Assembly (NCBI GenBank): GCA_947184155.2
Contig: CAMXCT020001556.1
Coordinates: 1-64,000, forward strand
DNA from: Cladocopium goreaui
Lineage: Eukaryota; Sar; Dinophyceae; Suessiales; Symbiodiniaceae
Reading direction: 5' to 3'
DNA length: 64,000 nucleotides
Shown: positions 16,240 through 63,221 of the stretch, one piece after another
Numbering within the stretch: the stretch's first letter is position 1
Layout: every line of letters starts with the position of its first letter
Notes under the pieces: generated by a model
Seen by the model: only the letters and a program-made list of their open reading frames with translations
Told to the model about the DNA's origin: nothing
The model's database searches: none
Program-made: the position numbers and the translations under genes

Positions 16240-17600
16240 CTGCGACAAGTGCTCTGGCAGGACCAATTCGACTTTGCTTGCTTGCCTAAGCCAGGGTGCA
16301 GCGAAGTTCATCCTTGAAGGTTGGCCATGGCGGTTTCCTGCGCCGGAGTAATGGAACAGAACTGAAGCAGCTTCATGGCACGGCTAATGATCTGTGCTTG
16401 CAGTTGATGGGCATCGGGCACTCCAAGTACACGGCACCAGGTGTGGGCTCCGATTGGGAACATGGCTTATGCAGTAACAAGTCTTCTTGTGTATGGGCGG
16501 TTCCTGCAATTGTGCCAGCTCTTGCATTCCAATCATCCTGCTTGCTGAGTGATGGTCCGTAAACATGCGCTTCTTTTCTACAAGCTAGCAGTACATCCCA
16601 CTCTTCGTCAAGTTATCCTCCACCCAATCCTGTACACTGCAACGTCCAGGGGGTCAGTGGGATTGAGTTGCCAGGCAGTGTTATCCATAATTATGATCTT
16701 CCAATCAGTGTATTGGGGTCAGCATGGCTGGCAAGAACTTCGTTGATAGCCAATTCCGCGTTGCTAGGATCAATTCCCAGTCGTTGTTGCAGTGCTGCAA
16801 GAAGAGGGACGATTTCGGCAGTGGGCAGTTGAAGGCTAGCTTGCTGTCCGCAGAAGACGTGGGCAGTCTGGCAGGTCTGGGGCCAGTTTTTTTTCCTCCG
16901 GTTTGGCCGATTCGCACTAGGCTCGGTCCTTACAATTGCGTAAGCAGTGAAAAGCAGGAATGTACAAGGACACGTGTGGTCCAAAAACTTAGGCAAATCA
17001 TCACGAAAACAACGACAAACAAAAAACAAAAAACCACCACAACCAAAAACGACCCGCAAATCCTCCAGCCAGATTTGCGTTTCGCCACAAAGCAAAACAG
17101 CGAAGCAACAAAGAACGGGGCAGGGCCCAACAAAACCAAAAAAGCATTCAGATTTGCCTTAGATACAGTGACCTTAGCCACCGTATCATCCTCAAAAACA
17201 TGCAAACTAATTATCCATTGCGGCAGTGCGTGAAGTATAATACATGATCGCCCAGAACGTCTCACCTGAGAACAGATAAGAGAATCCAGTGTTGCAGGCA
17301 GACTGATGTGGAGCACGACAGAGGCCGCTTGTATGGACGTCTTGTCAATATCAACTCCCGCATCGCTACTGTTCATCCTGCATCGTTCAGCGTACGCAAG
17401 TAAGTCTGTTCCAGTCATATACACCGCCGCAAGGGATTGTGATCTATTGCCCCCCCTAGATGGGGAGGAGAGTACTGACGGCCTGTAAGACATGCCAGAT
17501 AGTGTCAGCCCTCACAGGAACCGTCATATAGTAAAGGGCCCAAGACCCTAATGGGCACTGGGTAAAAAGGTGGCTGAAAAAGCCTGAATGTCACTATACG
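16240..17600 (-). other. unassigned region with one coding-like minus-strand stretch
   Basis: On the minus strand, about 16691-16850 reads as an orderly helical peptide (block PLLAALQQRLGIDPSNAELA), ending at a stop. It is unlike the low-complexity frames around it and may be a terminal exon or a gene remnant. The upstream part of the same open frame is Phe/Val-rich and looks non-coding. No family was recognised. Confidence 0.3.
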
Positions 17601-19228
17601 GCCATTGCAGACAGACGAAGCTTCTGACCATAGCATGGGCTCGTGAGCACAACCAGTATGCTACTGCCGAAATGTAAGCACATGTTGCATTCGCATGGCA
17701 GTCGAACTCGTCCCCCTAAGCTATGCAGGTTGAAATGGTTCGCTGTGCCAGTACCAGATTCTCTGACAGGAGTCACTAGGCGTCATCGTCCCAGCAACCT
17801 GCGGAGAGGACCAGATGCACCGTAAGTTAGCAGTGTATTCCAGACCAGGCCACTCTCCCACCGAGTAGGCCATCTGCCAGGGCACTACAGAACATCCGCA
17901 CAACGAACCATGTGGGCAGGCTTTGCTGCACGCGGGCGCTCCAGACTGAACTGCAGGAAGCTCAACTGGACAGCGCCAGTAAAGCTCACTGCAGTGCAGC
18001 CTAGTCCATGGCTCTACCGGGAATCTACCGCCCCTCTCGGAACAAAAGCAGAAACAAAACAAAGAGAGAAGGGCCCTCCCCAATACAAAGCCAAAGAAGA
18101 AGCCACATGAGAAAACAAACTAAACACAAAACGAATTCAGTGGGGGAAAAGGGGGGCGGTGAAAGAACTACCCCACCTCGGACGAATCCTTAGTCACTAC
18201 CAGATGAGACCATATAGCCAGGGTGAAACAATCTATTATGCAGAGCGGTATCCTCGGTATCCAGGCAAAAGAGGGAACAAACAACACGCAACCAACCAAC
18301 AAAAAACCTGCCAACAGGGGGGGAAGCAGAAAGAGGGGGGCGGCCAAAGCACAACACACACCACACATACAAGCCACACAGAAGAAGAGAGGAGAGGAGC
18401 CAGGAGGCAGCAAAGGACAGAGAGAGAACGGACACACACGCACCAGAAGCGGTTCGAACGTGCCTTAGCGGGGTCCAAAAAGGGGCCAAGGATCATACGA
18501 TGATGAATACCTCAGGGAGGGAGCACACAGCACCCCAACAACACAGGAAGCATGGTGTAGAGGGAAGGATCCCCACACAGGGCCAAGGCCTTTGTTGCCA
18601 TGAGACACAATGAAGAGGGGAGACAATGCGCCACAACACTCCACGCACAGAGGCAAGGCAACCAGGCCGTCGCCGGAAGCAACGATACCCAGAGGGAGGG
18701 ACCAGTAAAACCTGGGCCAAGGCGCCAAAGAGGACCATCCGAGGGGGAGGGGGGGCCACGTCAGGCAGGGAACAAATCAACAAACAAAGGAACCATAATA
18801 CAAGGCACCAACACCTAAGGTAGCTCTGCTAAGGGCAAAAACTAGGGATTAGTAAACGAATTCAGATACCTTAACTAGTGGAAAGGGTGGGAGAGTGGTT
18901 GTCTCGTCAATATTAAGTCTGGGGATAATAACATCAGTTTCATCACCCATCTATGATTGTCAGGCAAAGGCTGCGAGTGCAAGCACTCATGCAATAGGCT
19001 TCATGGTGGAAGAGACCTTAGTATGGTCTAAGCTCTCGACTCGACAGCACATTCTACACAACTGTGCAAAGGAAAACCATACTGCCCGGTCTGTTACGCC
19101 TAAGCTGGCACTCTCACCAACTATAAATGAGTGTGGCTACCAACTGTTTGCGAGATATGAATAGGTAGGGGCCGGGTATGCTCAGCACGATGAACCTGAC
19201 AATTATACATGAGGGAGAGTTGTGTCCC
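17600..19228. other. no recognisable gene; strongly strand-asymmetric DNA at 18.0-18.8 kb
   Basis: About 18000-18820 is purine-rich on the plus strand, hence pyrimidine-rich on the minus strand. It lies about 0.65-1.5 kb downstream of the minus-strand coding exon at 19476-20218. A similar pyrimidine-rich tract follows the paralogous gene at 63222-64000. No open frame here is convincing. Confidence 0.45.
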
Positions 19229-19238
19229 CTACTGCCGA

Positions 19239-19267
19239 CCAGTGCACCTGTCACGTCTTTGGACAGA
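19239..19267 (-). other. 29-bp motif shared by the 3' flanks of two paralogous genes
   Basis: Read on the minus strand, this stretch is TCTGTCCAAAGACGTGACAG followed by GTGCACTGG. Near-identical copies lie at 63434-63462 and 63517-63543 on the plus strand. All three lie downstream of the same conserved coding exon. Function unknown; a 3'-UTR or element-terminal signal is possible. Confidence 0.65.
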
Positions 19268-19475
19268 CACACCGGTATGGACAGGAACCTTAAGTGGAAT
19301 TGACGAAAGGACCAAATAGAGAGTTAAGTCAACTCCCACCAACATTGTTGATGAAGCAAATGCCACATATTGCCAGGGACAATGCGGAGTGAAAAAGAGA
19401 AGAGAGGAAAGGGAGAGAAGAGAAGGGGTGGACACAAAAAGGGTATAAGTAATGCGAACAGGGGTGGGCGGGGGA

Positions 19476-20218
19476 TCATGTCATACCTCTCGTGAAATGT
19501 TCCAAATAGTGCTTTTTGTCTGATGTAATGGTGTCATTCCATTCATTGGTGAGCCCAAACGAAACTGGGTTCACTCCTTGCTGGACAATAGCACGCTGCA
19601 GAAGCGCTCGGATCGCCCTTTGATGTTCGTCCAGGTCTTCCGGCGGAACCCTCCTGCGGACTTTCCTGTCTGGGAAGTTTCGTTCCCGCAGGTTGGTTTG
19701 CAAGGCATGTCCCGCTACATAAACTGCAGGTTGCTGGAATAAGACGCGCTCTGCAAATCTGTGGAGATGCACTGTCCACTCAGCAAACATATGGCTGTGC
19801 GACAGTTGATTCCTGAGTCGCGCTTCCGTTTGATGGAGGCTCCCATTGGTATGCCACAATCGTAAAAGACTGTAGTTGGAAGGCCAATCAAGTGGGCACA
19901 ATGTGGCTGTTTCTTTCCACTTCTCGGGCGTGAGCCCTGCGTGAGAGGGAGTGATAACTTCCAGAGTAGTGCGATTCGGTCCCAGTGGTTGGAGACCTCG
20001 CATCATGTATGGTTCAACGAGCCCTGTTGTATATCCACGGATGAGCTCCTGGAAACATCCAGCCATTTGAAAGTCTTCGTCCAAACCAAGGCGAAAACCA
20101 GGCATGTTTTTGGCAGCAAATTTAACTGCCTGGAGCAACTGCTTTGCTCCCTCCACCGGAGTCTCGTCACAGGAACGTTTCGGGCATGCGATGTTAATTT
20201 CTTGTGGTTTCTGCGCCG
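19476..20218 (-). CDS. 3' exon of a helicase-linked gene family, copy L (function unknown)
   Basis: The minus-strand frame begins directly after repeat copy L and ends at a stop at 19476. It aligns without large gaps to the C-terminal region of the plus-strand gene ending at 63221: shared blocks include LLQAVKF versus VLQAVKF, LEVI.PS..GLTPE.WK, and NYSLLRLWHT. By eye about two thirds of residues match in the core. Similarity starts within a few residues of the repeat boundary. No known domain was recognised and no helicase motif lies in this exon. No matching coding sequence was found upstream of the repeat, so this copy is probably a 5'-truncated fragment or has a distant upstream exon. Confidence 0.6.
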
Positions 20219-21207
20219 CTTGGTACCTTTGGGCTCCCAGTGCAGGGCCACGCCAAAAAGGCGAAAACCACGCAGAAGCATGGCCCTACGCAAGCACCAG
20301 GCGCACCCTGGGGCGGTACCCTTTCCACACCACGAGTCCCAGGTCAAGCCAAGGAGAGTGGATCCACTCACCGAGTGACGTGGGAACCGAAACCATTCAT
20401 TTCCACCAAGAATGTACAGCGTAAACCGTACACCCCGAATGGACGTGGAGACGGAACCCATTCATTTCACCCAAGATGATCACCACTCAATCCAAGAGAG
20501 ACCAACTCATGATGCCCCCATAGGTTCCCGGACTCCAGCGGCTACCGGAGAAGACGATCCAAGAAAGGAGTGGAAAGTCTTAGTCACCTTTTCAGTGACC
20601 CCAGTCCCTATGGAGCACAGCTCGGACCTTAGAGCCAAAAAACAAGGTCCTCACTGTGGCCAGACTGTACATTGAGCCCACTCTCCCCGAAGGTTGAGAG
20701 TGAATCGGTCGGTGACCCAGTCGTTAGCGATCCTATGTATCCCAGGGGGATACACTGTCTTGCGACAGGACCCTAACACTGTTAGGGAGGAACCGACGGT
20801 ATGAATATTGACCGTTTGCCCCGTTGACCCCTCCTCGAGACAAGTCCCCAAGTCTCTAAGAGGTTCACCGACCTTGCCTGTTCCCCAGTGTCATCATTGG
20901 GTGTTGCTACCCCAGACACAAGGTGAGGTGAGACCCGTCGGTCCCGTACCACGTGTGTACCGATCGGTCTGGGAGAACCCCATACCGTACGATCACCTAA
21001 GTTTTTTTTTCCGTCCAACGCCTTATGGCTTCCGCCAGGTCGTTCAACATGTTTCCAAGCATGTTGCAAATGAAATTAATTAATTGACAACCGAAACACA
21101 AAGAACAGAAAGCAAACAACAAAAAAACACACCAAAAACAAACACCGTAAGGATGTGCGCAAACACAAACGAGGGTGTGACATGAGAAGCAACCCAACAT
21201 GTCAACA
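20219..21207 (-). repeat. ~1-kb structured repeat, copy L
   Basis: This is the reverse-strand counterpart of repeats A, B and C at 54.6-61.9 kb. It is slightly more diverged, carries a ~150-bp insertion (about 21001-21150) and lacks the outermost 5' part. It ends ...ACCAAG on the minus strand exactly where the conserved exon 19476-20218 begins. The hairpins with GCAA and UUCG loops are preserved. See copy B for the full description. Confidence 0.85.
21001..21150. mobile_element. small insertion inside repeat copy L
   Basis: Copies A-C run without a break across the point where copy L holds about 150 extra bases. The insert starts with a T-rich run and CCGTCCAACGCC and shares two further blocks with 14205-14262. 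A short non-autonomous insertion is likely. The exact ends and any target duplication are unclear. Confidence 0.5.
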
Positions 21208-21639
21208 CTGGCAGGTCTGGGGCCAGGGTGTGTGGTTGTTGTTGTGATTGGGGACTTCCACTGCCGTCCAGAGACTCTGTAGCAACACCTGCGTCTTGGT
21301 CAGGCTGCGCTCTGTCGGAGACATGTGGTCTGGCCACTAATTTGTCTCCTCTGGCGAAATCGCAACCTGTGGGGTGTGTCCATAGCGGGGGTGCCTCGTC
21401 GAAACGGCGAGTGGTTGCAGTCCTTTACTTTGCCACTGTTGGAGCTTTTGTCCGAGACCTACTTTGCTCCCATGGAAGGGCATGTACTATGGGTGGCAGG
21501 CTGCACCCTTTATCCAACTCTTTGCTTTGGAAAAGCTTGTCCCCCGGGAGGCAGAGTATGGGGAAGTTGGCCGGGAATACAGACATGGGAGAGTGCTCCC
21601 TGTTCGAAGATGGGACGAGCCCAGGAAGGGTGGGGTTCG

Positions 21640-21960: not shown

Positions 21961-22165
21961 GCGGGAGGTACTCCTAAGGAACACCGATGTGGTTGCAGGA
22001 AAGCTACGGTTTTGAGCCCCCAATCTGGAAACCGCCCAAAGACCTCAGGATACCCCGGCATGACGACAATGACGGCAAAATGCCATGTAATCTCGCAGCA
22101 CTCACCACAAACTGGTCGAAAGTGCGAACGGCACATGGTCCACGGTCTCCCGGACACAGAATGAC

Positions 22166-28997: not shown

Positions 28998-29010
28998 TGG
29001 TAGCGGAGCT
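28998..29010 (+). other. primer-binding site of the copia element
   Basis: TGGTAGCGGAGC follows the LTR without a gap. TGG complements the CCA end of a tRNA, and the stretch resembles initiator-Met primer sites (TGGTATCAGAGC in plants). The same 12-mer follows the left LTR of the second element at 40879. Confidence 0.85.
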
Positions 29011-29035
29011 GCCTGCTTGCTGCGCGTAAGTAGGA

Positions 29036-36651: not shown

Positions 36652-36998
36652 GTTTACGTTTAAAACGGGGACCCTGTGACAGAGAGAGAGACAGAAGTTG
36701 GATCCACGTTTCATTTCGTTTCATTTTGTTTCATTTCTGTTTGCACGTTGTTTTCAAACAAACGTTGCCAAAGACAAACAGGAGTTTTCACGATGTTTCA
36801 TTTTGTGCAGAGTTTTGTTGCGCGATGCTGTAAGATGCAGTGTGTGTGCGCAGTGCAGAACAATCTGAAAGGCCACTGATCCTATCACACTTGTGATGGC
36901 GGTTTGACACTTCGTTTCACGTTCTAGGTTGATTGCTCCTAAGAGTTTAGCCACAGTCTAGTGCTTTTTCACTACCGGACGCGGTTTGGTTTGTAGCC
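36652..36998 (+). other. spacer between pol and the 3' ORF
   Basis: About 350 bp lacking a coding signal, with TTTCATTTCG/TTTCATTTTG repeats near 36710-36745. It may hold the leader or splice acceptor for the 3' ORF. Confidence 0.4.
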
Positions 36999-37580
36999 AT
37001 GGCCAAGTCTGGATGGACAGATGAGGATGAGAAGGCTTTGCTTGCTCTTCTTCAGAAGAAGTGGAATAGTGGAAATCCAGGGTCAGGCTATGCAGCCGGA
37101 TCCAGTGTTTTGACTCCTTTGGAGAGTCAAGGAGCAATGACAGATGGAAGCAAGCGACTTCGTGAGGCTCTGGATGATGATGAATTCGATTTGATTTCTT
37201 CAGCAGCTGAACCTTTGAATGCACAGTTGCCTGTCATGCCTATCCCAATCTTTCCTGGGATTGCCGACAAGGTCCTTGATCAGCTTACTGCTGATTTGGT
37301 ACCTGAAGGAATGAGTTTTCGAGATTGGAGCAGAACGAAGTTTGCGTTTGGAAAGTTTGCCAATGAAGGCAAGACATACCGTGAGGTATATGTCGATGAG
37401 GAGATGGCAGGATATTGCAAATGGAGTATGGGTCACCTGGGAAACAAGAGTACAAGTCCAATTGCAAAGGATTGGTATTCTTTTCTCTGCGCATGCAAGG
37501 TTGTGGAGGACTCTGGAAAGGTTGGAAAGCCAAAGGGTTGCTTCACTGGAACTTCAGTGCAGAGGCAGTTGGGTGATTGA
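36999..37580 (+). CDS. extra 3' ORF of the copia element (ExoX-C-like motif)
   Basis: A 193-residue frame starts with an ATG (MAKSGWTDEDEKALLALLQK), so its N-terminus has a WT-D-E pattern weakly like a SANT repeat. Its C-terminal part has FGKFANEGKTYREVY, then YCKWSMGHL and WYSFLCACK. That spacing resembles the short domain found C-terminal in ExoX-like nucleases (FGKY.GKT..EV...YV.W). It lies after pol and before the polypurine tract, where some LTR elements carry env or accessory ORFs. There is no signal peptide or membrane segment, so it is not env-like. Function unknown; nucleic-acid binding is a guess from motif likeness. Confidence 0.65.
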   Translation: MAKSGWTDEDEKALLALLQKKWNSGNPGSGYAAGSSVLTPLESQGAMTDGSKRLREALDDDEFDLISSAAEPLNAQLPVMPIPIFPGIADKVLDQLTADLVPEGMSFRDWSRTKFAFGKFANEGKTYREVYVDEEMAGYCKWSMGHLGNKSTSPIAKDWYSFLCACKVVEDSGKVGKPKGCFTGTSVQRQLGD

Positions 37581-37748
37581 GAATATCTTCATTGGTGCAA
37601 AGGCAAAGAAAAGACTATGAGCTGGTTGTTCATTGGATGGTGGACAACGGGACAACTCGTACTATATGTATCGACCTGTCGAGCTTGAGCGATATGTGCT
37701 GAATTCTGGATGGGTTACAGCGTATACCTATGGAATGGAGTTCATCTC

Positions 37749-37757
37749 AAAAGGGGG
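37749..37757 (+). other. polypurine tract of the copia element
   Basis: AAAAGGGGG lies immediately before the right LTR, where plus-strand DNA synthesis is primed. The same AAAAGGGGG in the context ATCTC occurs at 46512-46520 inside the second element. Confidence 0.9.
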
Positions 37758-38606
37758 TGTGAAAATATGACATCTGTGAGAAGATGTCTGACATCTGTGG
37801 TGAGATGATTCCATTGGTCTTTTCTGCATTGGAAGAAGTGAATTTGGTTTTCATCTTGATGATGAGCACAACCGTGATGGTTGACATCGTATTTGCACGT
37901 TTCATGTTTTGCACGTTTTATTGGAGATGACGAAACCCAACAACGATATACTTTTCGTCTTCTTTGAGTACTTTGATTGCACGGAGAACACTGTGAGGAT
38001 TTGAATTTGTATAGTGACATGGAAAATCAAACCATTTTCCATATACTTTGCTTTAGTTTTCGTCGACGAAGTGCACGAAGGAATCGTGAGAAGATCTTAG
38101 AATTCATTTTGTGACTTCGGAAGAAGGAACTTTGTTTGACATTGATTGGAGAAGAGTAGTGTGTTTTGTCTCTCAATGATGATAGCGAGAGCAACGTTCT
38201 GAAAGGCATTCAGAACTCGAGTTGCTAACAGATCTGAGGGAGACATCATGAATCATGTTTTGGTGCTTGAAATGTTTCAACGTTTTTCAAACACTCAAAC
38301 TTATTTAAACAAACAAACCATGTCTTGATGTAAAGACTTTTTGTGACGACATGTGTTTTTGATCGCTTTTGTGAAGTTGGCAGAAAGATGCTAACTGGCG
38401 ACTCCGCATCATTTTGTGTCAAGGCGTGACACACCAACAAGAACCATAGCGACATGAGCAAACATCTTGTTTCTGTGCTTGTGTGTTTGGTAAAAGTGGC
38501 TGAGCTCTGGGAGTGGTTGACTTGGTAGCGTGGACGGTTCTAGTGAGTTAAGGACGACGTCCTGGACGCTGACCCAAGGGTTTCGAAGGTTGCGGTACCT
38601 TCTGCA
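37758..38606 (+). repeat. right LTR of the copia element
   Basis: The 849-bp partner of 28156-28997 starts TGTGAAAATATG and ends TTCTGCA. It has a few extra small insertions relative to the left copy. Confidence 0.95.
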
Positions 38607-39457: not shown

Positions 39458-40878
39458 TGTGGAAGTTTGAACCCTTGTGGATGCAACTTGGCATTGGTGC
39501 GGTTGAGCCTTCAGTGGTGAAACTGGACTATGGGAAGGTGTCTGCATCAGACATAAGTAGTTTCAATATTGCTTTGTGGTATGAGAAGCTGCATGAGCTG
39601 ATCTGAGATATCGACCAGTGAGTCTAAGTGAATCTACTGGAGCTTGATTCTCCTTTGAATACAGTTTGAAGCGTTATTTTGCTTTATGACAGTGGACGAA
39701 TGCTTTCAGAAGCATTCGCTAGACAGATGAGTCGGGATGATGCGGTTTCATCGATCTCAGAGATTCCTTGACTCCTTGTGGGAGTGTGGATCTGACGGAG
39801 ATGGTATTGGAATATCCGTTTCGATTCTTGACGTTGCTTCAAACATCTGAGATGTTGGTGAAGTCCTTTGACTACCTCTTGCGAGGAAGTCTGATATTTT
39901 AGCGTTGTAAGGACAATGCCTACGCATAGTGTTCGACATCTGGGCATTTGATCTGGAAGTCTGATACTCCGGCATTGAGAAGACAATGCCTACGTATAGT
40001 AGTCAACCTCTGGGTATTTGGTCTGGAAGTCTGCTTTGTGACTTTTGTCTTTGTGACTTATTGCTGACGTTTGGTTATTGTGGTGAGCGAACTACTTTAG
40101 CGCTATGACTGCTGATGACTGGATATTAGCTGAGAAGTCGAGCAGAACATTCTGTTCTCCACGGTAGTTTGGAGCTATGAGAAGATGTCTCTGTGCGAAG
40201 AATTGTTTTGGAGATGGAACAGGAGGTTCCTTCCATGTTGTTCTGTATTGCAAGAGGATTTTGTAAAGGAATTTGAATGAATCATTTCGTTCTTGAATAG
40301 CCGTGTAACTAGTCTAGACGTTTGGTAGAGACTAGTAACTCCGGCTAGCTGGTTTATTTGCGTTTGGACGAGAACCAGTTTGACTTGAGAACTTTTGGAA
40401 ATGTTTCTGACGTTTTTGTGACTAGGTGATTTGTATATCATAGCAGTTTGGAATTGTTTCAACAACCTTTGAAGGAAGGTTGTGTATTGGAAACCTGGAA
40501 TCGAGTTTCCCAGTTGAGACATCGGCTCAAGGGAGTGGTGTCAAGTGTTCCGAAGAGAACTGAACTGCAGTGTCACCTAGGGCACTTGAAACACCACACT
40601 GGAACTTCTTGCTTCCTTTCTTTGTTTGTGGGCTGTGGCCGTGTGCCTGCCCTGGTTCTTGTTGACCTGTTCCGTTGTGTGTGGCGTCTGGAGAGAAAAG
40701 AAGGAGTCTGACGCGCACTTAGGAGTCGGGGTGGAACAAGTTCCTTTATCTGACATTGCAGAGAAGTAAGTAATTGCGGAGCCGCAACCACAGTAGGTGT
40801 TTGCGTCTGGCGTAGTGTTTTTCATGAAAGCGTCGATTTGGGTACACGAGAGGTGTACTTGGGTTTACGTTTTTCACA
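39458..40878 (+). repeat. left LTR of the second element
   Basis: Matches 47349-48763. It differs by a 13-bp insertion near 40845 and scattered substitutions. An internal pair of ~70-bp degenerate direct repeats around GACAATGCCTACG (39895-40025) is present in both LTRs. Confidence 0.92.
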
Positions 40879-47348: not shown

Positions 47349-48763
47349 TGTGGAAGTTTGAACCCTTGTGGGTGCAACTTGGCATTGGTGCGACCTGACT
47401 TTCATTGAGCCTTCAGTGGTGAAACTGGACTATGGGAAGGTGTCTGCATCAGACATAAGTAGTTTCAATATTGCTTTGTGGTATGAGAAGCTGCATGAGC
47501 TGATCTGAGATATCGACCAGTGAGTCTAAGTGAATCTACTTGGAGCTTGATTCTCCTTTGAATACAGTTTGAAGCGTTATTTTGCTTTATGAGAGTGGAC
47601 GAATGCTTTCAGAAGCATTCGCTAGACAGATGAGTCGGGATGATGCGGTTTCATCGATCTCAGAGATTCCTTGACTCCTTGTGGGAGTGTGGATCTGACG
47701 GAGATGGTATTGGAATATCCGTTTCGATTCTTGACGTTGCTTCAAACATCTGAGATGTTGGTGAAGTCCTTTGACTACCTCTTGCGAGTATGTGAGATAC
47801 TTCGGCATTGTGAGGACAATGCCTACGTATAGTATTCGACATCTAGGTATTTGATCTGGAAGTCTGATACTCCGGCATTGAGAAGACAATGCCTACGTAT
47901 AGTAGTCAACCTCTAGGTATTTGATCTGGAAGTCTGCTTTGTGACCTTTGTCGTTATGACTTATTGCTGACGTTTGGTTATTGTGGTGAGCGAACTACTT
48001 TAGCGCTATGACTGCTGATGACTGGATATTAGCTGAGAAGTCGAGCAGAACATTCTGTTCTCCACAGTAGTTTGGAGCTATGAGAAGACATCTCTGTGTG
48101 AAGAACTGTTTTGGAGATGGAACAGGAGGTTCCATGTTCTGTATTACAAGAGGATTTTGTAAAGGAATTTGAATGAATCATTTCGTTCTTGAATAGCCGT
48201 GTAACTAGTCTAGACGTTTGGTAGAGACTAGTAACACCGGCTAGCTGGTTACTTGCGTTTGGATGAGAACCAGTTTGACTTGAGAACTTTTGGAAATGTT
48301 TCTGACGTTTTGCGACTAGGTGATTTGTATATCATAGCAGTTTGGAATTGTTTCAACAACCTTTGAAGGAAGGTTGTGTATTGGAAACCTGGAATCGAGT
48401 TTCCCAGTTGAGACATCGGCTCAAGGGAGTGGTGTCAAGTGTTCCGAAGCGAACTGAACTGCAGTGTCACCTAGGGCACTTGAAACAGTAGCCACACTGG
48501 AACATCTTGCTTCCTTTCTTTGTTTGTGGGCTGTGGCCGTGTGCCTGCCCTGGTTCTTGTTGACCTGTTCCGTTGTGTGTGGCGTCTGGAGAGAAAAGAA
48601 GGAGTCTGACGTGCACTTAGGAGTCGGGGTGGAACAAGTTCCTTTATCTGACATTGCAGAGAAGTAAGTAATTGCGGAGCCGCAACCACAGTAGGTGTTT
48701 GCGTCTGGCGTAGTGTTTTTCATGAAAGCGTCGATTTGGGTACTTGGGTTTACGTTTTTCACA
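47349..48763 (+). repeat. right LTR of the second element
   Basis: The 1,415-bp partner of 39458-40878, starting TGTGGAAG and ending TTTTTCACA. An 8-bp insertion (ACCTGACTTTCATTGAG versus GGTTGAG region) near 47392 and scattered substitutions distinguish the two. Confidence 0.92.
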
Positions 48764-50364: not shown

Positions 50365-50860
50365 CCACACCGCAGGTTTATTTCGGTCCGTGAGAGGGGC
50401 TAAGGGTGGTTTTCCTCTGTGGGGCTCCCCAAGCTAAGAATTTTCACTTTCCCCCCCCGTGGGGGCTCCCCAAGCTAGGGAATTTTCACTTTTCCCCCCC
50501 GTGGGGGCTCCCCAAGCTAGGGAATTTTCACTTTTCCCCCCCGTGGGGGGCTCCCCAAGCTTAAAGTAATTTTCCTACTTTTTTTTTTCCCCCCCCCCCC
50601 GTGGGGGCCCCCAAGCTAGGGATTTTTAACTTTTCCTCCCCCCCCCGTGGGGCTCCCCAAGCTAGGAATTTTTCACTTTTTTCCCCCCCTTGGGGGCTCC
50701 CCAAGCTAGGGGGGGGGGGAATTTTTTAACTGTTCCTCCCCCCCGTGGGGGTTTCCGTTTTCCCAAGCTAGGGAATTTTCACTTTTCCCCGCCGTGACAG
50801 CTTCCCAAGCTATGGAATTTTCACTTTTCCCTCCCTTGGAGGCTCTCCAAGCTGCGGAAT
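50365..50860. repeat. 42-56-bp tandem array with C-run/G-run hairpins
   Basis: CCCCAAGCTA recurs at 50427, 50467, 50510, 50553, 50609, 50655 and 50699, with weaker copies to about 50850. Each unit is AGGGAATTTTCACTTTTCC plus CCCCCGTGGGGGCTC; the last part forms a C/G hairpin. Run-length differences explain the variable period. Confidence 0.9.
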
Positions 50861-51059
50861 ACCATTAATTTTTATAATCACCATGTTCCCGGGCTAAAAA
50901 CCTAGAACCCTGAGATATAAGGTAAAAATGTGAAAAAGGCTGAAAACATGGGGCACTAGATATCATATATATATATATTGATTGATATAAAGCTGGACAG
51001 GTAATTTCAAATAGCTAGACAACGACGCCTAGATAGTCTCCCAAATCCCGTGTTCTGTG

Positions 51060-54390: not shown

Positions 54391-54607
54391 TTAGTCCTCA
54401 GTCTCAGGTTCCGTAGGAACGTTGATACGACCATATTGGTCCGTCGATTTCAGGAAGCCCCATCGGATCTTGCAGAGCTGTGGGTCGCGATGTAGCCGTG
54501 CTCCAGTAGTTTTCCAAGAAGGACGGGAGCGATTGTCCTGTTTCATGCTCGCTAACTCCCGATCATCTGCTTCGGTCCATACTCTGGAAAGTGACTCTCG
54601 AGGAAGA
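54391..54607 (-). CDS. 3' exon with Myb/SANT-like motif
   Basis: The minus-strand frame abuts repeat A and ends at a TAA at 54393-54391. It contains WTEADDRELASMKQ, then W and then CKIRWGFLK, with the spaced tryptophans and the C..RW..LK close of a Myb/SANT-type helix-turn-helix. This suggests DNA binding, but only one repeat is visible. The part upstream must lie in or beyond repeat A and was not identified. The gene at 54218 starts about 170 bp downstream on the same strand, a compact head-to-tail arrangement. Confidence 0.5.
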
Positions 54608-55627
54608 TGGACCCGAGAGGGTCCAGGGGGACGTTAAACTTGGGTATAGCGCAGGGGAGTTGCTGAAGGCCCCCGTCCCTAACGAACCGTGAATTAACAC
54701 GGTACCTTGGTACCCCCTAGTCGGCGTGTGTTGACATGTTGTGTTGCTCCTCATGTCACACCCTCGTTTGTGTTTGCGCACATCCTTGGGTGATCGTGCG
54801 GTATCTCGGGGTTCTCCCGGACCGATCGGTACACACGTGGGACGGGACCGACGGGTGGTACGGGACCGACGGGTCTCACCTTACCTTGTGTCTAGGGTAG
54901 CAACACCCAATGATGACACGGGGGAACAGGCAAGGTCGGTGAACCTCTTAGAGACTTGGGGACTTGTCTCGAGGAGGGGTCAACGGGGCAACCCGTTGGC
55001 TAACGGTCAATATTCATCGTTGGGTAGCTAAGCTCGCGGTGGACAAGACCGTCGGTTCCTCCCTAACAGTGTTAGGGTCCTGTCGCAAGACAGGTGTATC
55101 CCCCTGGGATACATGGGATCGCTAACGACTGGGTCACCGACCGGTTCACTCTCAACCTTCGGGGAGAGTGGGCTCAATGTACAGTCTGGCCACAGTGAGG
55201 ACCTTGTTTTTGGCTCTAAGGTCCGAGCTGTGCTCCATAGGGACTGGGGTCACTGAAAAGGTGACTAAGACTTTCCACTCCTTTCTTGGATCGTCTTCTC
55301 CGGTAGTCGCTGGAGTCCGGGAACCTATGGGGGCATCATGAGTTGGTCCCTTGGATTGAGTGGTGATCATCTTGGGTGAAATGAATGGGTTCCGTCTCCA
55401 CGTCCATTCGGGGTGTACGGTTTACGCTGTACATTCTTGGTGGAAATGAATGGGTTCGGTTCCCACGTCACTCGGTGAGTGGATCCACTCTCCTTGGTTT
55501 GACCTGGGACTCATGGTGTGGAAAGGGTACCGCCCCTGGGTGCGCCTGGTGCTTGCGGGGGGCCATGCTTCTGCGTGGATTTCGCCTTTTTGGCGTGGCC
55601 CTGCACCGGGAGCCCAAAGGTACCAAG
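54608..55627 (+). repeat. ~1-kb structured repeat, copy A
   Basis: It lacks the first ~50 bp found in B and C, starting at TGGACCCGAGAG, and ends ACCAAG. It carries a short duplication near 54840-54868 (GGGACCGACGGGTGG). It lies between the minus-strand Myb-like exon and the plus-strand helicase gene, so it may be an intron or leader part of either. See copy B. Confidence 0.9.
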
Positions 55628-55696
55628 CGGATTATGACCTTTTCTTCTAGAACCATGCGCAAATGAAAGTGTATGGCCCCTCGCTGGCAATGACAG

Positions 55697-56450
55697 ATGA
55701 TTGGGAGCATCACCCAACTCGGGTTGACCAAAACAACGCATGAGTATGCAATCTACCAGCTTTTCTCCACTGCCGTGGGATGGAGTGCATGGAAGGAATT
55801 TTTGCCGGATAGATTTGCCAACCTCAAGCTCTTGATCACCCGTGCTATACGGCTACTGACTGCGGCAACCATCCGGCCAGCACATGCGAGACCTCCCCAT
55901 CCCACATGGGTCACGGCAGTTCGTCAAATCTTCAGATGCTACCATCCACAGGGCAAACTGCTGTTGGTGCGAGCCTGTTTTCCCCATCTTGTGACAGCAT
56001 CCATCCCAGACGGTATAAGAGACATCGATGTTCTTCGCTTTTCGGCGGGATCGTACACTGGATTGGCAATCCACAAAGTGCTCAATGAGTTCGATTGCTT
56101 CCCAGGTACCACAAAGGTAGCTGCAATTGCCACTCCGCCAGAAATGCTGAGGCTGACAACTGGGGAACGAAGAGTGGTGCTTCTACATTGCCTTGAAGAC
56201 CGTCTCTGCGTGTGGCACCCTGACACCCTCACAGACCTTAGCTATAATGTAGTCCTCATCGACGGGCAGCCTTCCTGGAGTGGCCGAGCACGGCATGCGT
56301 ATGGACATTTATTGTTCACATCAATTGAGGAAGGTACCCATCATATTGATTATCTCCAGATTACGACCCCTGAGGTCATACCACATGGGATACGGTGTGA
56401 GGGGCTCCTACGGGTGCTCTCATGGGTTAGCTTTGATCTCCCTGACCATG
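55697..56450 (+). CDS. helicase gene, first recognised exon
   Basis: The ATG at 55697 follows CAATGACAG, a possible spliced-leader acceptor; stops precede it in frame. The exon encodes about 251 residues with no recognised domain: a helical N-terminus, then an alternating hydrophobic region (for example LLLVRACFPHLVTAS). The frame would stop four bases into repeat B, but continues without a stop into the next exon if bases 56451-57500 are removed. Confidence 0.55.
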
Positions 56451-57500
56451 GGTAGGGGGATGGGGTCCCCAATACCATGTGGTCAACAGGGGGAGGTGGA
56501 CCCGAGAGGGTCCGGGGGGACGTTAAACTTGGGTATAGCGCAGGGGAGTTGCTGAAGGCCCCCGTCCCTAACGAACCGTGAATTAACACGGTACCTTGGT
56601 ACCCCCTAGTCGGCGTGTGTTGACATGTTGTGTTGCTCCTCATGTCACACCCTCGTTTGTGTTTGCGCACATCCTTGGGTGATCGTGCGGTATCTCGGGG
56701 TTCTCCCGGACCGATCGGTACACACGTGGTACGGGACCGACGGGTCTCACCTTACCTTGTGTCTAGGGTAGCAACACCCAATGATGACACGGGGGAACAG
56801 GCAAGGTCGGTGAACCTCTTAGAGACTTGGGGACTTGTCTCGAGGAGGGGTCAACGGGGCAACCCGTTGGCTAACGGTCAATATTCATCGTTGGGTAGCT
56901 ATAAGCTCGCGGTGGACAAGACCGTCGGTTCCTCCCTAACAGTGTTAGGGTCCTGTCGCAAGACAGGTGTATCCCCCTGGGATACATGGGATCGCTAACG
57001 ACTGGGTCACCGACCGGTTCACTCTCAACCTTCGGGGAGAGTGGGCTCAATGTACAGTCTGGCCACAGTGAGGACCTTGTTTTTGGCTCTAAGGTCCGAG
57101 CTGTGCTCCATAGGGACTGGGGTCACTGAAAAGGTGACTAAGACTTTCCACTCCTTTCTTGGATCGTCTTCTCCGGTGGTCGCTGGAGTCCGGGAACCTA
57201 TGGGGGCATCATGAGTTGGTCCCTTGGATTGAGTGGTGATCATCTTGGGTGAAATGAATGGGATCCGTTTCCACGTCCATTCGGGGTGTACGGTTTACGC
57301 TGTAGATTCCTGGTGGAAATGAATGGGTTCGGTTCCCACGTCACTCGGTGAGTGGATCCACTCTCCTTGGTTTGACCTGGGACTCATGGTGTGGAAAGGG
57401 TACCGCCCCTGGGTGCGCCTGGTGCTTGCGGGGGGCCATGCTTCTGCGTGGATTTCGCCTTTTTGGCGTGGCCCTGCACCGGGAGCCCAAAGGTACCAAG
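56451..57500 (+). repeat. ~1.05-kb structured repeat, copy B (candidate mobile intron)
   Basis: It begins GGTAGGGGGATGGGG and ends GGTACCAAG. Removing this 1,050-bp span joins the codons of both neighbouring exons in frame. Strong hairpins on the plus strand: GGACCC-GAGA-GGGTCC (56498-56513), CCTAA-CAGTG-TTAGG (56935-56949), CCTGTC-GCAA-GACAGG (56952-56967), TGTATCCC-CCT-GGGATACA (56968-56986) and a CACTCTC/GAGAGTG stem capped by C-UUCG-G (57020-57043). GNRA and UUCG loops are typical of stable structured RNAs. The apparent ORFs in its last 200 bp enter the following exon in different frames in B and C, so they are not a shared coding part. No protein is encoded. Confidence 0.88.
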
Positions 57501-59578
57501 CGTGCAAACGGACCCTCAGTTCACTTCTTCAGGCTGCTGGCAAGGGATGTTCTGATCTACATATGGTGCCATGGGATGGCAGAGATGTCAGAGATGACCC
57601 CATTGCTACAGAGCAGGATCTGCGACAGGTCCTGATCGACATGATCCCAATTCCTGGGCAGGCGAACGCAGAAGGAGGAGAACTCATGAGAAGCCTGCTA
57701 ACTGAATTCCTCCGTGGTTTCCCCCTGCGCATATTGATCTTCCTGCTAGATATGGTGTTGCCTCAATTGGATGCTTACCATGCAGGTCGTCAGCTACAAC
57801 ACTTGAACCCTTGGACCAGTGTTGTGTTGGCGCAACGACAAGAGCGAGGTCAACCGGGAGTTGAGCTGGTAGTCCGATATGGCTATGAGGCCTTTGCGGG
57901 ATTTCATGTTATGCAGCTGATCACTGAGTGCATTCCTCTCTTGCTCTTCAGCGACCCAAAGGCGGTTCCTTCCGCGTCACCATGGAGTCTGTGTGAAAAT
58001 GGCAACTTAGGAAGCATGGAAGCCAATGTGATGGCAGGGAGGGCCCTGTTTGGGCGGTTCCAGCTCCCCGAGGGCCCACGTCGCTGCGCCATTTTTCTTG
58101 TCCAAGAAAAAGTAATGCAAGGTACTAGTCGTTCCGCGGATTCCCGTGCATACCGTCGAATCGCTCCAAAATCCCTTGAGCTAGTCCTGGTCTCCAGGCC
58201 TGTCGCGTTTGCATTTTGTGGCCGCCTCCTAGTGCAACAGCCAGCGGAAGTGGAATACTTTGACCCAATGCGAGACTGGCCGAAACCTATTGTCTTCCAC
58301 GCAAGCTTCTGTGTGTTGATGGAAGAAATGGCATTCCTTGGTGACACACGAAGCAGATGTGAATTGCTGGTTTTTGCACAGGCTAACCCGGCACGACTCC
58401 CACTGACGATGGGTATTCTTCAGCCCAATATCCCAGTGCGACGAATGATGAGTGAACGCCGGACGAAGCTGACGGACGCATTGGTCCAAGTGCTCTGTCG
58501 CCTACTTACACCCATTGGAGTTGCTCTCCCAGGCCCGCATGATGAATATATGCGCGACAGCCTACTCCCTTTGGCAGCGCATGGTGATGGGCATGTCCTT
58601 ACTGTGGCAGTAGCATTGCTCCTGGCGATCCTCACTGGCCGTTCTGACCTTTGCATCGCAGGCGTTTTTGGTGCCGGAAAGACGCGTTCCTTGGCGGTGT
58701 TGTTAATTGCCTTCAGCTGCGAGCTAAGTGATTTCTATGCGATCGTGTACACCAAAGAAAATGTTGCTGCAAAAGCCTTGGCGGATCAAATCAGTGACCT
58801 AGCTCCACCAACACGAAGTGCCTTTGGACGGTTACTGGGTCGCATCGAGGAAGGCAAAGGCGAAGCGTATGCAACCAAAATTGATGTTCGATGCAGTGAT
58901 CGCAATAGAGTTATTGCTGAGAAACGCATATTGATTGCGACCGGAGGCTCCGCTACGGCGGAAATGGCAATGAAATACTCGTCTTTTAGTCTCTGGCTCT
59001 CTAAGGTCTGGCTTGCATTTATGGATGAAAGTCAACAGTACGGCAACTACCATGAAATTGCCGCTCTTGCTGCAATCCAGCAACCAGCACTGCTTGTATT
59101 TGTCGGTGACCACAGGCAAACACCTGGAGGTCTCTCCAAGGGAAGGGCTGCAGCTGCGAATAGACAGAAGCTTCTTCATCGTCCCTTGGGGCTACGAGCT
59201 TTGAATCGCCCTGGCGACTATTTGCCCCCTGCCCGGCTCACCAAGTTAATTGCACTCCTATGGCCGGATGCGAGCCAGGACAACGACTCTGAAGTGGCGC
59301 GGCTACTCAACCTTGGCCAAGCACCACACACAGGAACTTGGGTTACTGCAACAACTGCCCAGCATCTACCAATTTCCTTGGCACGCCTTTTCAGTGAGGA
59401 AACGCTCAGCCACCTGAATGTTCAGAGTTGCCTGATTTCTGCAATACTGGCTGTCTTGCTTATTGCTACTGCGCCAGAAGAATTCGGCATCCCTGAGTGT
59501 ACAACTACGATTGAAGCAGCCGGCCTAGATGGTCCGCATAGATGGGGCATCCCAACAGCTCCAGAGTGTCCCTGTTGA
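57501..59578 (+). CDS. UPF1-like SF1 helicase, N-terminal and first helicase domain
   Basis: After repeat B the frame is open to a TGA at 59576-59578. An N-terminal region of about 390 residues without recognised domains precedes GVFGAGKTRSLAVLL (Walker A), then WLAFMDESQQYGNYHE (Walker B, DExQ type) and VFVGDHRQTPGG (motif III). This set is typical of UPF1-like superfamily 1 helicases, which unwind RNA or DNA 5' to 3'. It is unlike Pif1/Helitron helicases. The remaining helicase motifs lie in the next frame, after an overlap at 59542-59578. Confidence 0.8.
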
Positions 59579-60828
59579 CGTATAAAGCCATCGTCGCAGT
59601 CAGGTACCCGGAATTGGTGCTACATGATCAGGATCCCATCCAAATAGGCCATTTTGTCCCCCACAATTATAGGGTTGGGCAGGGAGGATTTCGTACTGTG
59701 TTATGGGAAGTACCCAGAGATTCCAGAGACCTCCTGGCTGCTATTGAGGATATCGTGGTATTTCTCAACTATCTTCAAAAGTGCTATCGAGACCTCAATC
59801 AAGGAGCGACGGCGCAGCTCCTGGTAATGTGTAATCGCACGGCAGTACACACACAACTTCTGCAGCATGGCTTCCAGGCTGCTTGGTTTGGTGGTCTGCG
59901 GATCGCCACCACCTCGTCAGCAGCAGGGGCCACTGCGCGAATCGCAGTAGTGGTCCAGACAGGATGTGGTTTCCTCAGTGGGGGCCGTCGAGGGGCAACG
60001 GTAGAAGACAAAGAGGATTGCTTTGGACGAGCCACCGTCGCGCTCACTAGAGCCATTCAGCATACATACATCGTCTCCCCCATTGATATGGCTGGGCTGA
60101 TTGGGATGGCGCAGACGCTTGTGGTATATCATTACGGGTATTATACCCTTAAAGATCGCACTGTCCAGTTCCATGAGCCCAAGCACGTGCCATCTGATGC
60201 AGAAGCGGTCCTTGAGTGGGGACTAAATACACCGTTTAATTCCCAAGACAAACCGCTTCTTGCCATAGCTATGGTAGTGACCGTGAATGGCGCACGATCC
60301 CTTAAAAGGTTTCGATTGGTCATTGCACAGAAGTCAAAGCTGCGGCTCACGCAGGAAGTCACTGCAGCGCTAGCCTCCCACAGTCGTGACCACCGCCTCA
60401 CGGCGAGCAGTTTCTTTCCGTGCTCCATAGATAGGGAATACCTGTACGGCTATGCCGGCGATGGATATCGTTCTCCACTTTGGTTGTGTGCTTCCCACAA
60501 TGGCTCCCCTGTTCTGGTACACAGGCTCAGAGGAAGCAAGATGTATTTTCATCAAGCCACCAAAGATCGGCGAATATTGCTCATCCCAGGTATCCACTAT
60601 TTTGACGCGCACCGACTGCAACCACTGCTATTACAAGCTCCTGCACTGCAAGTACATATGAGAGAGAGCCCTCTGGTAGGCCCGGAAGGGGCTGGCGAGA
60701 CAGTGGACGATCCCTCGTCGGAAGAAGAACAAGCCACCACTGCAAGTGAAACTGAGGCAGAGAGTGAAGATGATGACGAGGATACACCTCCAGAGGAACC
60801 ATGGTGCCCGCCAATCCCACCGGCCATG
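59542..60828 (+). CDS. UPF1-like SF1 helicase, second helicase domain and acidic tail
   Basis: The frame overlaps the preceding one by 37 bp in a different phase. It has VSLLTYKAIVAV at its start (motif IV-like), LLVMCNRTAVH, then FGRATVALTRAIQHTYIV, the conserved motif VI (VALTRA) of UPF1-like helicases. The C-terminus is acidic (SSEEEQ...ESEDDDEDTPPEE). Together with the previous frame it forms one complete SF1 core, so the phase change is a frameshift, an unrecognised short intron or a sequencing error. The ATG at 59542 is probably not a genuine start. The coding frame continues to ATG 60826-60828, where repeat C begins. Confidence 0.75.
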
Positions 60829-61876
60829 GGTAGGGGGATGGGGTCCCCAATACCATGTGGTCAACAGGGGGAGGTGGACCCGAGAGGGTCCGGTGGGACG
60901 TTAAACTTGGGTATAGCGCAGGGGAGTTGCTGAAGGCCCCCGTCCCTAACGAACCGTGAATTAACACGGTACCTTGGTACCCCCTAGTCGGCGTGTGTTG
61001 ACATGTTGTGTTGCTCCTCATGTCACACCCTCGTTTGTGTTTGCGCACATCCTTGGGTGATCGTGCGGTATCTCGGGGTTCTCCCGGACCGATCGGTACA
61101 CACGTGGTACGGGACCGACGGGTCTCACCTTACCTTGTGTCTAGGGTAGCAACACCCAATGATGACACGGGGGAACAGGCAAGGTCGGTGAACCTCTTAG
61201 AGACTTGGGGACTTGTCTCGAGGAGGGGTCAACGGGGCAACCTGTTGGCTAACGGTCAATATTCATCGTTGGGTAGCTAAGCTCGCGGTGGACAAGACCG
61301 TCGGTTCCTCCCTAACAGTGTTAGGGTCCTGTCGCAAGACAGGTGTATCCCCCTGGGATACATGGGATCGCTAACGACTGGGTCACCGACCGGTTCACTC
61401 TCAACCTTCGAGGAGAGTGGGCTCAATGTACAGTCTGGCCACAGTGAGGACCTTGTTTTTGGCTCTAAGGTCCGAGCTGTGCTCCATAGGGACTGGGGTC
61501 ACTGAAAAGGTGACTAAGACTTTCCACTCCTTTCTTGGATCGTCTTCTCCGGTGGTCGCTGGAGTCCGGGAACCTATGGGGGCATCATGAGTTGGTCCCT
61601 TGGATTGAGTGGTGATCATCTTGGGTGAAATGAATGGGATCCGTTTCCACGTCCATTCGGGGTGTACGGTTTACGCTGTACATTCCTGGTGGAAATGAAT
61701 GGGTTCGGTTCCCACGTCACTCGGTGAGTGGATCCACCCTCCTTGGTTTGACCTGGGACTCATTGTGTGGAAAGGGTACCGCCCCTGGGTGCGCCTGGTG
61801 CTTGCGGGGGGCCATGCTTCTGCGTGGATTTCGCCTTTTTGGCGTGGCCCTGCACCGGGAGCCCAAAGGTACCAAG
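60829..61876 (+). repeat. ~1.05-kb structured repeat, copy C (candidate mobile intron)
   Basis: The end points equal those of copy B (CCATG|GGTAGG and CCAAG|CG). Removing 1,048 bp moves reading from frame 1 to frame 2, exactly as the flanking coding frames require. It is nearly identical to B; one change replaces the G closing the UUCG loop (TTCGA near 61408). See copy B. Confidence 0.88.
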
Positions 61877-63221
61877 CGGGATGATCCTACGGAACAGGAA
61901 ATCAAAGGTGCTGCGGACAAGTTGGCCACTATGATGAGCAGTTCACAGCCTAGCGCTAGTGTTTTCTATCAACCTGACAACCTTGGTGCTCTTCCACACC
62001 TGTGGCTGCAAGCTAAGCTTACTATCTCCCTGACTTCAATGCAGGAAAAGTTTGCCCGCCTTTTCATGTCAATTGCGTCAGAACTGTGGCTGCGGGGCGT
62101 GATTGAGACGGTTGAGGAGGTCTTTGCACATGCTGCCCGGAGTTTTACCCTCCGGCTGGCCGAAACGCTTTCGCAGTACATCTGCTCTCTCACTCGAAGA
62201 GCAGAGTCCCTGGCTACCCCAGAGACGGAATGCCTGCTATATGCCACTTTCTGGTTTCGTCCAATCCTCTCCGAGCTCATTGTGGCAGCCAGAGAGTGCA
62301 GAGGTGAACCGCAAACGTGCCCCCAGTGGCCCTGTCAAAGTTGTCGTCACGAATCAGCCCCACTCGCGGCGTCACACTGGGGTCGACCTGGTTAGTGGTA
62401 CTACGGCCTTATTGGCGTGGTTTCCGGCGAGCTGGGCCAGCAAGATTGCGCCATGTTTCTTAGGGGAAGCTGGCGGTAACACCCAAGCCCCACAGGAGGT
62501 TTCCTTCTCCTGTCCCCATCGAGTATTTGAGGGGTTGCAGAGAGAAGCGGCTGATCAAGTCTTGCAGGCGGTTAAATTTATTGACAAGAACGCTCCAGGA
62601 CTGAGCCTGGCCTTGGATGAGGAATTTCAAGCAGCTGACTGCTTTTCAGAGCTCGCCCGAGGATACACACAAGGGGTAGTTGACCCCTATATAATGATGG
62701 GCCTACAACCCACTGGACCCACCAGAGTCAACTTGGAAGTAATTGTACCATCCCCCAAAGGACTTACGCCTGAAATGTGGAAGCAGACAGCCACTTTGTG
62801 CCCGCTTGAGTGGCCGTGCAACTATAGCCTTCTGAGATTGTGGCACACGCCCAAAAGTTTCCACCAATATGCTGCACAACTCAAGCAACAAGTACAGCAT
62901 CAACATATGTTCACACACTGGGAAGTCAACCGCGCTAAGTTAGCCAGCAGAGTGTTGTTCCAACGACCAGCTTATTATCTACCGGAAACGATTCTGCAAC
63001 AGCACGTGCGAGAGCGCGTCTTCCCTGATCGGAAACTACGCAAAAGAGCACCTGATAATGACGTAGCTGCTTTCGAAACCAAATGCAACGAAGTACGTCG
63101 CTTGGCTGCAACGAACGAAGCAGAGAACCCTGTCTCCTTTGCCATTGGGAATAGCTGGAATGATACTCTCCGAGCTGACAAACACCACCACCTTGAATAC
63201 ACTACACGGAGTCAGACATAG
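61877..63221 (+). CDS. helicase gene, 3' exon with conserved C-terminal region
   Basis: The frame entered from repeat C (DDPTEQEIKGAADKL...) is open to about 62310. Coding character then passes to another frame, open to a TAG at 63219-63221 (for example VKVVVTNQP, then FPASWASKIAPCFL), so one frameshift or short intron lies near 62290-62330. From about 62490 on, the peptide matches copy L (19476-20218): VLQAVKF, LARGYTQGVVDPY, GLQPTGPTRVNLEV, NYSLLRLWHT. No known domain was recognised. The conserved region in two distant copies indicates a functional family. Confidence 0.6.

Follow-up and report, generated by a model that had tools for sequence, protein, structure and literature searches.

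Group I introns have a U.G pair at the 5' splice site, a P1 helix of 4-6 bp, and G as the last intron base. Their 5' exon pairs with an internal guide, in the P1 hairpin (PMC3679873), and nuclear examples are described as restricted to ribosomal DNA (rDNA; PMC3679873, PMC8395846). Group II introns are described as excluded from nuclear genomes, except as inert transfers (PMC4424553). Spliceosomal introners range from 30 to 654 nucleotides (nt) and, in many families, have target duplications and inverted repeats (PMC9860276). Those of Symbiodinium have a 4-bp target site duplication (TSD) and terminal inverted repeats (TIRs), and part of the Amoebophrya introns have short inverted and direct repeats (PMC9860276, PMC7789003). 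Finally, bacterial IStrons consist of a group I ribozyme joined to an IS transposon (PMC4227781). Here, we describe a repeated element, of roughly 1 kb, in a 64,000-nt stretch of the Cladocopium goreaui genome (contig CAMXCT020001556.1, positions 1 to 64,000, forward strand; hereafter, the window). Comparison of its copies indicates that the element is probably a group-I-like, guide-directed, noncoding, structured mobile intron, which would reverse-splice into the RNA of a retroelement and ride its reverse transcriptase.

The original prediction, made from the window alone, was that the repeat interrupts a helicase gene family like a mobile intron. It listed three direct copies (A, B, and C), one reverse copy (L), and exons unrelated to each other. 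All four copies exist. They are 90-99% identical over the parts they share, according to alignment, and their flanks have no mutual similarity. Copies B and C are full. Conversely, A and L are not, because they are 5'-truncated (lacking approximately the first 41 and 167 nt, respectively), and L has a foreign insertion. This foreign stretch, of about 147 bp (window 21002-21148), contains a run of nine A in the orientation of the element. As also proposed, the plus-strand paralogue is uninterrupted at the site of L. The flanking exons are helicase-like. They are pieces of one SF1-helicase-like gene, of about 2300 amino acids as estimated from several loci, and the window copy of this gene is decayed, with a frame break near 59541. 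The 3' flank of copy A resembles a helicase exon that, in locus L013, is preceded by that locus's own element copy. The element copies, and the guide tracts discussed below, are as follows.

54602..55629 (start about 54602-54608), plus strand: element copy A, 5'-truncated (repeat search and alignment)
56450..57502, plus strand: element copy B, full (GGGTAGGGGG...GGTACCAAGCG), 1053 nt (paralogue empty sites; frame kept on removal)
60828..61878, plus strand: element copy C, full, 1051 nt (genome search and paralogue empty sites)
20217..21208, minus strand: element copy L, 5'-truncated; a retroelement copy starts at the same position
56479..56484, plus strand: guide 1 of B, GTGGTC, pairing with 56444-56449 (GACCAT), with U.G at the junction
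56444..56449, plus strand: 5' exon target of B, GACCAT
60857..60862, plus strand: guide 1 of C, GTGGTC, pairing with 60822-60827 (GGCCAT), with one further G.U inside
60822..60827, plus strand: 5' exon target of C, GGCCAT
56528..56535, plus strand: guide 2 tract of B, a weak match with a 3-nt run
60906..60913, plus strand: guide 2 tract of C, a 4-nt run with the upstream exon

We searched the whole genome (1.17 Gb in 6202 contigs) with copy B. This returned 431 first-look candidates; the 40 of these that were scored all matched the whole query at 97-100% identity. With up to two mismatches allowed, the element's 5' end occurs 176 times (100 + 76 places), and an internal stretch occurs 242 times with up to three. 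The reversed control for the 5' end, and the control for the internal stretch, gave no matches. The positions of copies differ between paralogues, and they are not scattered without relation to exon ends. Our first sample comprised the 40 best matches to B, plus neighbours inside the fetched loci. Removing two of these 41 as duplicates left 39 unique full copies. Sixty further copies were chosen by 5' end alone, ignoring flanks, in listing order from 100 listed places of the 176. Together, these make a set of 99. Four copies fetched for having a base other than T at position -1 were kept out.

The unit inserted is exact. All 32 full copies with long flanks end AAAGGTACCAAGCG, and 30 of them start GGGTAGGGGGAT. 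For 28 of the 39 unique copies, a gap-free relative, with at least 80% identity, provides an empty site; these are paralogous gene copies. Comparison with empty sites places the insertion directly after T, with zero bases duplicated and zero lost. The borders are therefore U/GGGUAG...AAGCG/, where slashes mark the junctions. The border is unambiguous in L011, L014, L015, L026, L028, L030, L033, and L038, because the next exon base is not G. The intron thus ends in G; AAGCG is the end in 32 of 32 copies, with the border fixed by empty sites having a non-G exon base (L011, L014, and L015). No target duplication was found at empty sites, and the two ends of the element do not form inverted repeats. 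In 25 of 32 copies, the longest open frame upstream agrees with that downstream, where one third would be expected by chance. Note that the unit removed in this test was 3 nt shorter than the final one, without any effect on frame.

Proteins of uninterrupted paralogues match exact excision of the element, which shows the unit of insertion rather than a spliced product. Protein P0010 also matches exact joining, and may come from an uninterrupted copy. Loci L021 and L028 share about 99% identity across 6.5 kb, and each is filled where the other is empty. At this level of identity, the events must be recent, and each difference could be a gain or a loss, which the sequences do not tell apart. Repeated intron-like gain by a mobile element, as originally proposed, is thus borne out by exact empty sites, differing sites between paralogues, and a frame restored on removal. 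The proposal of an ordinary introner fares less well. At about 1.05 kb, the element lacks target duplications and inverted repeats, carries a guide to its own exon, and is hosted by the open reading frames (ORFs) of a retroelement. We set the ordinary introner aside since TSDs and TIRs are absent at empty sites.

In an alignment of 32 copies, 101 of 1060 columns vary, and columns 30-34 and 80-88 (counted from 0) are hypervariable. Apart from these two short tracts, the copies are near-identical. Tract 1 (element nt 30-35) complements the final six bases of the same copy's 5' exon. At -1, 96 of the 99 copies have T, and all 99 listed guides start with G, producing a U.G pair at the splice site. 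At positions -2 to -6 of the 32 copies, 153 of 160 pairs are Watson-Crick, compared with 69.5 +- 6.3 after guides were reassigned at random to other copies (maximum of 98 in 10000 shuffles). The 60 copies chosen blind to their flanks gave 279 of 300 pairs, compared with 112.8 +- 8.6 after shuffling (maximum 145), and a six-pair match in 54. Across all 99 copies, 465 of 495 pairs (93.9%) form in register, compared with 15.6-25.1% at eight other registers, and all six pairs are present in 90. The result is similar with one copy per distinct guide (220/235 pairs, compared with 89.5 +- 7.3; all six pairs in 42/47). Moreover, 19 guides are each found at two or more unrelated sites.

Tract 2 pairs with positions of roughly -8 to -14 in the same 5' exon, and is weak in many copies. 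Sums of the longest runs were 185 for 39 copies, compared with 121.6 +- 5.9 for the control, and 261 for 59 copies, compared with 180.2 +- 7.1. The predicted fold of the element is 1 kb long and multi-domain. When 14 exon bases are included, pairing of exon and guide (five or six of six) around a small internal hairpin is predicted for 37 of 39 copies. With swapped exons, the predicted hairpin appears in 7 of 39.

A divergent subfamily 2, typified by L017b, starts AGCCCGGGCGG and has 40 listed copies that are 96-100% identical. Our sample was 20 of these 40 places, plus L017b and L127. A six-pair guide match was found in 20 of 21, or 20 of 22 counting L127, in which the guide is unmatched and G is at -1. 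The shuffle control (99/105 compared with 74.8 +- 5.3, maximum 94) is less striking, because the 21 copies hold only three guide sequences. Guide GTCTGT stands before ACAGAT-like sites in many different contexts. Hence, a fixed guide picks targets. In a six-sequence alignment of the subfamilies, 20 of 348 predicted pairs are changed on both sides. These include one pair in a CCAUAGG/CCUAUGG helix and four adjacent pairs in the helix that immediately precedes the 3' end, where GGUACC/GGUACC is replaced by GUGUGC/GCACAC. Separately, subfamily 2 (L017:7712-8798, minus strand, and L127) and the family 1 copy L018b (L018:6152-7243) have an extra 50-55 nt or so, near two thirds of the element, that resembles a neighbouring module.

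Guides differ between elements that are otherwise almost the same. In 197 copy pairs, with no more than eight differences elsewhere, guide 1 shows 2.9 differences over 5 positions, compared with 0.03 expected, although the pairs are not independent. Guides change about 100-fold faster than other parts of the element. For example, L011 and L018 (4402) are one base apart outside the guides and differ at four of five guide bases, yet each fits its own site (five of six for L018). Since the same guides occur at unrelated sites, and guides diverge fast, we conclude that they both select targets and change quickly. Some length changes in guide 2 add complements of the local exon (L034 versus L019, L018 versus L022, and L106 versus L100, where L106 and L100 share a site). 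At filled sites, exons match the guide a little more closely (166/168 pairs) than do the best of their empty relatives (157/168). Mismatches between filled and empty exons number 12 of 168 at -6 to -1 and 103 of 1842 elsewhere. Quasi-palindrome correction is the templated repair of an imperfect inverted repeat. Such repair, of the inverted repeat formed by exon and guide, would yield guide refitting. Alternatively, guides might be diversified, with subsequent selection of matching sites; the data favour neither.

We now consider the host. After masking of the element, colinear matches of at least 800 nt chain 30 of the 31 long loci, including the window, into one retroelement (the weakest link is 1446 nt). 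The composite spans about 45 kb, including element copies and flanks. Its ORFs are endonuclease-like, reverse transcriptase, RNase H-like, UCH-like, and helicase-like. Only the reverse transcriptase is above the Pfam cut-off (RVT_1 in L014, L019, and L028); Exo_endo_phos, at 3e-4 in L019, is below. The element lies in sense orientation inside the retroelement, mostly in ORFs. Similarly, 81 of 88 short 5' flanks, used as 60-nt queries, match retroelement loci in sense and none match in antisense, although some of the 81 could fall in dispersed repeats. The minus-strand copy in the window starts inside element L, and is flanked by an 18-bp TSD. Hence, RNA bearing the element was reverse transcribed, and this copy is a target-primed insertion of that RNA, truncated inside the element. 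The relevant features are listed here.

55694..56449, plus strand: helicase-gene exon before B
57503..59575, plus strand: helicase-gene exon downstream of B; its AAA_19 match (E 0.0011) is below the Pfam cut-off
59542..60827, plus strand: helicase-gene segment upstream of C, in a different frame; the copy is decayed
61879..63218, plus strand: C-terminal part of the helicase gene after C, in two frames
19479..20216, minus strand: C-terminal exon of the helicase gene after L
16887..21208, minus strand: 5'-truncated copy of the giant retroelement, which starts inside element L and ends in A8
21209..21226: TSD, 18 bp, beside the 5' end of the retroelement copy
16869..16886: TSD, 18 bp, beside the 3' end of the retroelement copy

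The host is a giant LINE (long interspersed nuclear element)-like retroelement of tens of kb (L010, L014, L019, L026, and L013). The 90% clusters of related proteins in ENA have up to 1018 members. Other dispersed repeats occur outside the retroelement, in both orientations (L025:387-2810, in the orientation of the element, L012:575-1464, L010:509-1239, and L024:9195-9701).

Two loci, L025 and L084, start exactly at element nt 1. In both, retroelement sequence is found behind the element and not in front; L025 has other dispersed repeats there. The guides nevertheless fit the missing exons. For L084, this is ACTGAT in L019, the sole paralogue found. For L025, it is GAGCAT in L011, one of six paralogues, of which the other five have a different base at -1 or -2. 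Cleavage of the RNA at the 5' splice site would produce such ends. Other routes are a reverse transcriptase stop at the hairpin or, for L025, later rearrangement. Both loci have G directly before the element, as the guanosine of the first group I step would leave. G precedes the element in five of seven unmatched copies with a base other than T at -1; three of these were chosen or found for that base.

We propose the following scheme, in which splicing, catalysis, and reverse splicing are steps that we infer from sequence. Element RNA would be cut at U/G, as specified by a P1-like helix between exon and guide, and the exons would then be joined. The freed element would reverse-splice into other retroelement transcripts where its guides can pair, and the retroelement's own reverse transcriptase would write the product into DNA. 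Once the element is inserted, its guide would be adjusted to match the exon it has entered; template switching from one arm of the exon/guide inverted repeat to the other may be the cause. Such refitting would let the element keep gaining new targets. Such a mechanism would account for the sense orientation, the exact unit without duplication, and the lack of an element-borne enzyme. It would also account for the single host family, shared guides at unrelated sites, and the truncated copy with a TSD. More tentatively, the element could represent a new class of mobile intron in the eukaryotic nucleus, ribozyme-like and self-retargeting. It would travel with a giant LINE through guide-directed reverse splicing into the LINE's RNA, and templated copying would update its guides to fit each new exon.

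Several observations weigh against a group-I-like mobile intron. Full guide 1 pairing is lacking in nine of the 99 copies (L047, L084, L092, L093, L096, L101, L018 (4402), L025, and L042), of which L093, L101, L018 (4402), and L042 reach five of six. The four copies fetched for a base other than T at -1, outside the 99, are all unmatched. Guide 2 is poor in copies B and C of the window, and group I introns are not known to have a second guide. The covariation term amounts to just -2.25 of the -421 kcal/mol. In addition, the alignment leaves several pairs of subfamily 2 broken, including some of the 5' hairpin. Rfam models for group I introns, with their conserved P3-P9 catalytic core, and for group II introns, with their domain V, did not match B (E<=5) or L017b (E<=10), in a search that had no positive control and that a divergent core could escape. 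Public gene models P0057 and P0058 start in the 3' end of the element and read on into the exon. A TSD was found for one retroelement copy only, that starting inside L, and for copy A none was found up to C1556:66700. L025 is tied to the retroelement solely by 393 nt of helicase exon, and is a fragment cut on both sides. Finally, an added-guanosine prediction, fixed beforehand, was not clearly borne out in four more copies, and neither copy with G showed all three of its points.

These four copies were as follows. C4112, with G, is unmatched, and its upstream sequence is unlike the retroelement; neither a 3' end nor the retroelement was found where expected. C5804, also with G, is unmatched; upstream it is 86% like L012:1158-1213, and downstream are 46 nt without a match. 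The L012:1158-1213 stretch, also present in L025 in reverse, may be a separate repeat. C4445, with C and expected to be ordinary, and C4165, with A, are both unmatched. Since copies with C and A are unmatched, like those with G, the added-guanosine reading is not established. L131, L133, L135, and L136 are element 5' ends with unmatched guides, and in three of the four the upstream sequence is unlike retroelement loci.

We considered four other explanations. The first, which we regard as unlikely, is a group II-like or wholly new ribozyme, with guide 1 as exon-binding site 1 (EBS1; -1 to -6), guide 2 as EBS2 (approximately -8 to -14), and splicing by branching. Both tracts do pair with the 5' exon in this EBS1/EBS2-like manner, at places like intron-binding sites 1 and 2, and the predicted 1-kb multi-domain fold would suit. 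However, group II introns have their two exon-binding tracts in the opposite order to those of the element. The strict U.G at -1 also argues against this class, as do the lack of an Rfam group II match in B and L017b (a search without positive control) and the fact that no intron-encoded protein was seen. In addition, the element has GGGUAG or AGCCC at its start and AAGCG at its end, hence GGGUAG...GCG rather than the GUGYG...AY described in PMC4424553.

A spliceosomal introner is quite unlikely. In this case, splicing would use GT-AG sites at GG/GTAGGG...CCAAAG/GTACCAAGCG, leaving 12 nt in frame, and guide pairing would serve insertion only. The 12-nt residue reads GYQA in copy B and, by inspection, is stop-free in other frames. 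Introners are also present in dinoflagellates (PMC9860276, PMC7789003). Conversely, GT-AG, GC-AG, and GA-AG are absent at the insertion borders, and the internal GT-AG is possible in family 1; subfamily 2, starting AGCCCGGGCGG, has no GT at that place. A differently placed, in-frame GT-AG is possible there by inspection, and the frame alone does not decide against an introner. The lack of target duplications and inverted repeats, and a length of 1.05-1.09 kb, do speak against it.

That the element is never spliced, and is a parasite that breaks retroelement copies and rides in their RNA as an insertion, is very unlikely. The host copy in the window is decayed and public gene models leave the element unspliced, which speaks for this explanation. 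It sits poorly with flanking open frames that agree in 25 of 32 copies, guides that fit the upstream exon, a preserved RNA fold, and the start of L025 and L084 exactly at the 5' junction. Last, IS200/IS605- and IStron-like elements have a base-paired left flank and no target duplication, as seen here, but guided insertion at the DNA level, with antisense copies removed by selection, is barely plausible given the absence of a transposase gene from the unit and of antisense matches among 88 flanks, the RNA covariation, and the retroelement copy truncated inside the element.

Other features of the window were also apparent. Rfam found no known RNA families at gathering score in the window. In B, matches to tRNA-Sec, histone, and PVT1 were weak and below gathering score, and L017b gave four chance-level matches. 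In a viral collection, two core patterns each had no exact match. Annotations of the P0057 and P0058 type, running from element into exon, are probably wrong. At window positions 28156-38057, a Copia-type retrotransposon (zinc knuckle; RVT_2 E 9e-19) is flanked by repeats of 300 bp or more that are 98% identical and are probably long terminal repeats (LTRs). A second repeat pair, 96-99% identical and 7.9 kb apart (39638-40845 and 47541-48743), possibly comprises the LTRs of another element. Tandem or near-tandem arrays are at 10375-12530, 14278-16126, 22090-22697, and 50427-50884, with periods of about 320, 775, 76, and 42 bp.

Experimental evidence for the complete path from reverse splicing, through reverse transcription, to genomic integration was lacking according to a 2013 review (PMC3679873). 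In the open-access literature, excluding subscription papers and preprints, the portions available to us contained no nuclear group I intron in a protein-coding gene, no intron whose guide matches the site of each individual copy, and no comparable element within a LINE. This one genome has many recent events, exact empty sites, matched guides, and retroelement copies seemingly caught mid-way. Hence, the path from reverse splicing to integration becomes directly testable. If true, a natural element with an RNA guide refitted to its target would introduce a new way to program insertion, as well as a new origin for introns. Should a group I core be found later, the element would be a variant of an established type, at a location not previously known to have one.

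Our proposal places the element closest to group I introns of the nuclear rDNA type, with which it shares a P1-like hairpin, the U.G pair, the terminal G, and a proposed spread by reverse splicing. Unlike these, it has no core recognized by Rfam, and it has a second guide, copy-specific guides, and a retroelement host. Mobile group II introns also have two tracts that bind the 5' exon, and retro-mobility, but their ends differ, and the element has neither an Rfam match nor an intron-encoded protein. With the spliceosomal introners of Symbiodinium and Amoebophrya, the element shares many near-identical, intron-like insertions in coding sequence. It differs in lacking TSDs and TIRs, and guides that match their own site are not described for introners in the available parts of PMC9860276 and PMC7789003. 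Like an IStron, it is an intron-like mobile element that could heal its own insertion, but it has no transposase. The host, in turn, resembles LINE-type retroelements without LTRs, having endonuclease-like, reverse transcriptase, and RNase H-like ORFs and, at copy L, a TSD, poly(A), and 5' truncation. It departs from LINEs in its composite span of tens of kb, its helicase gene of about 2300 amino acids, and its UCH-like ORF.

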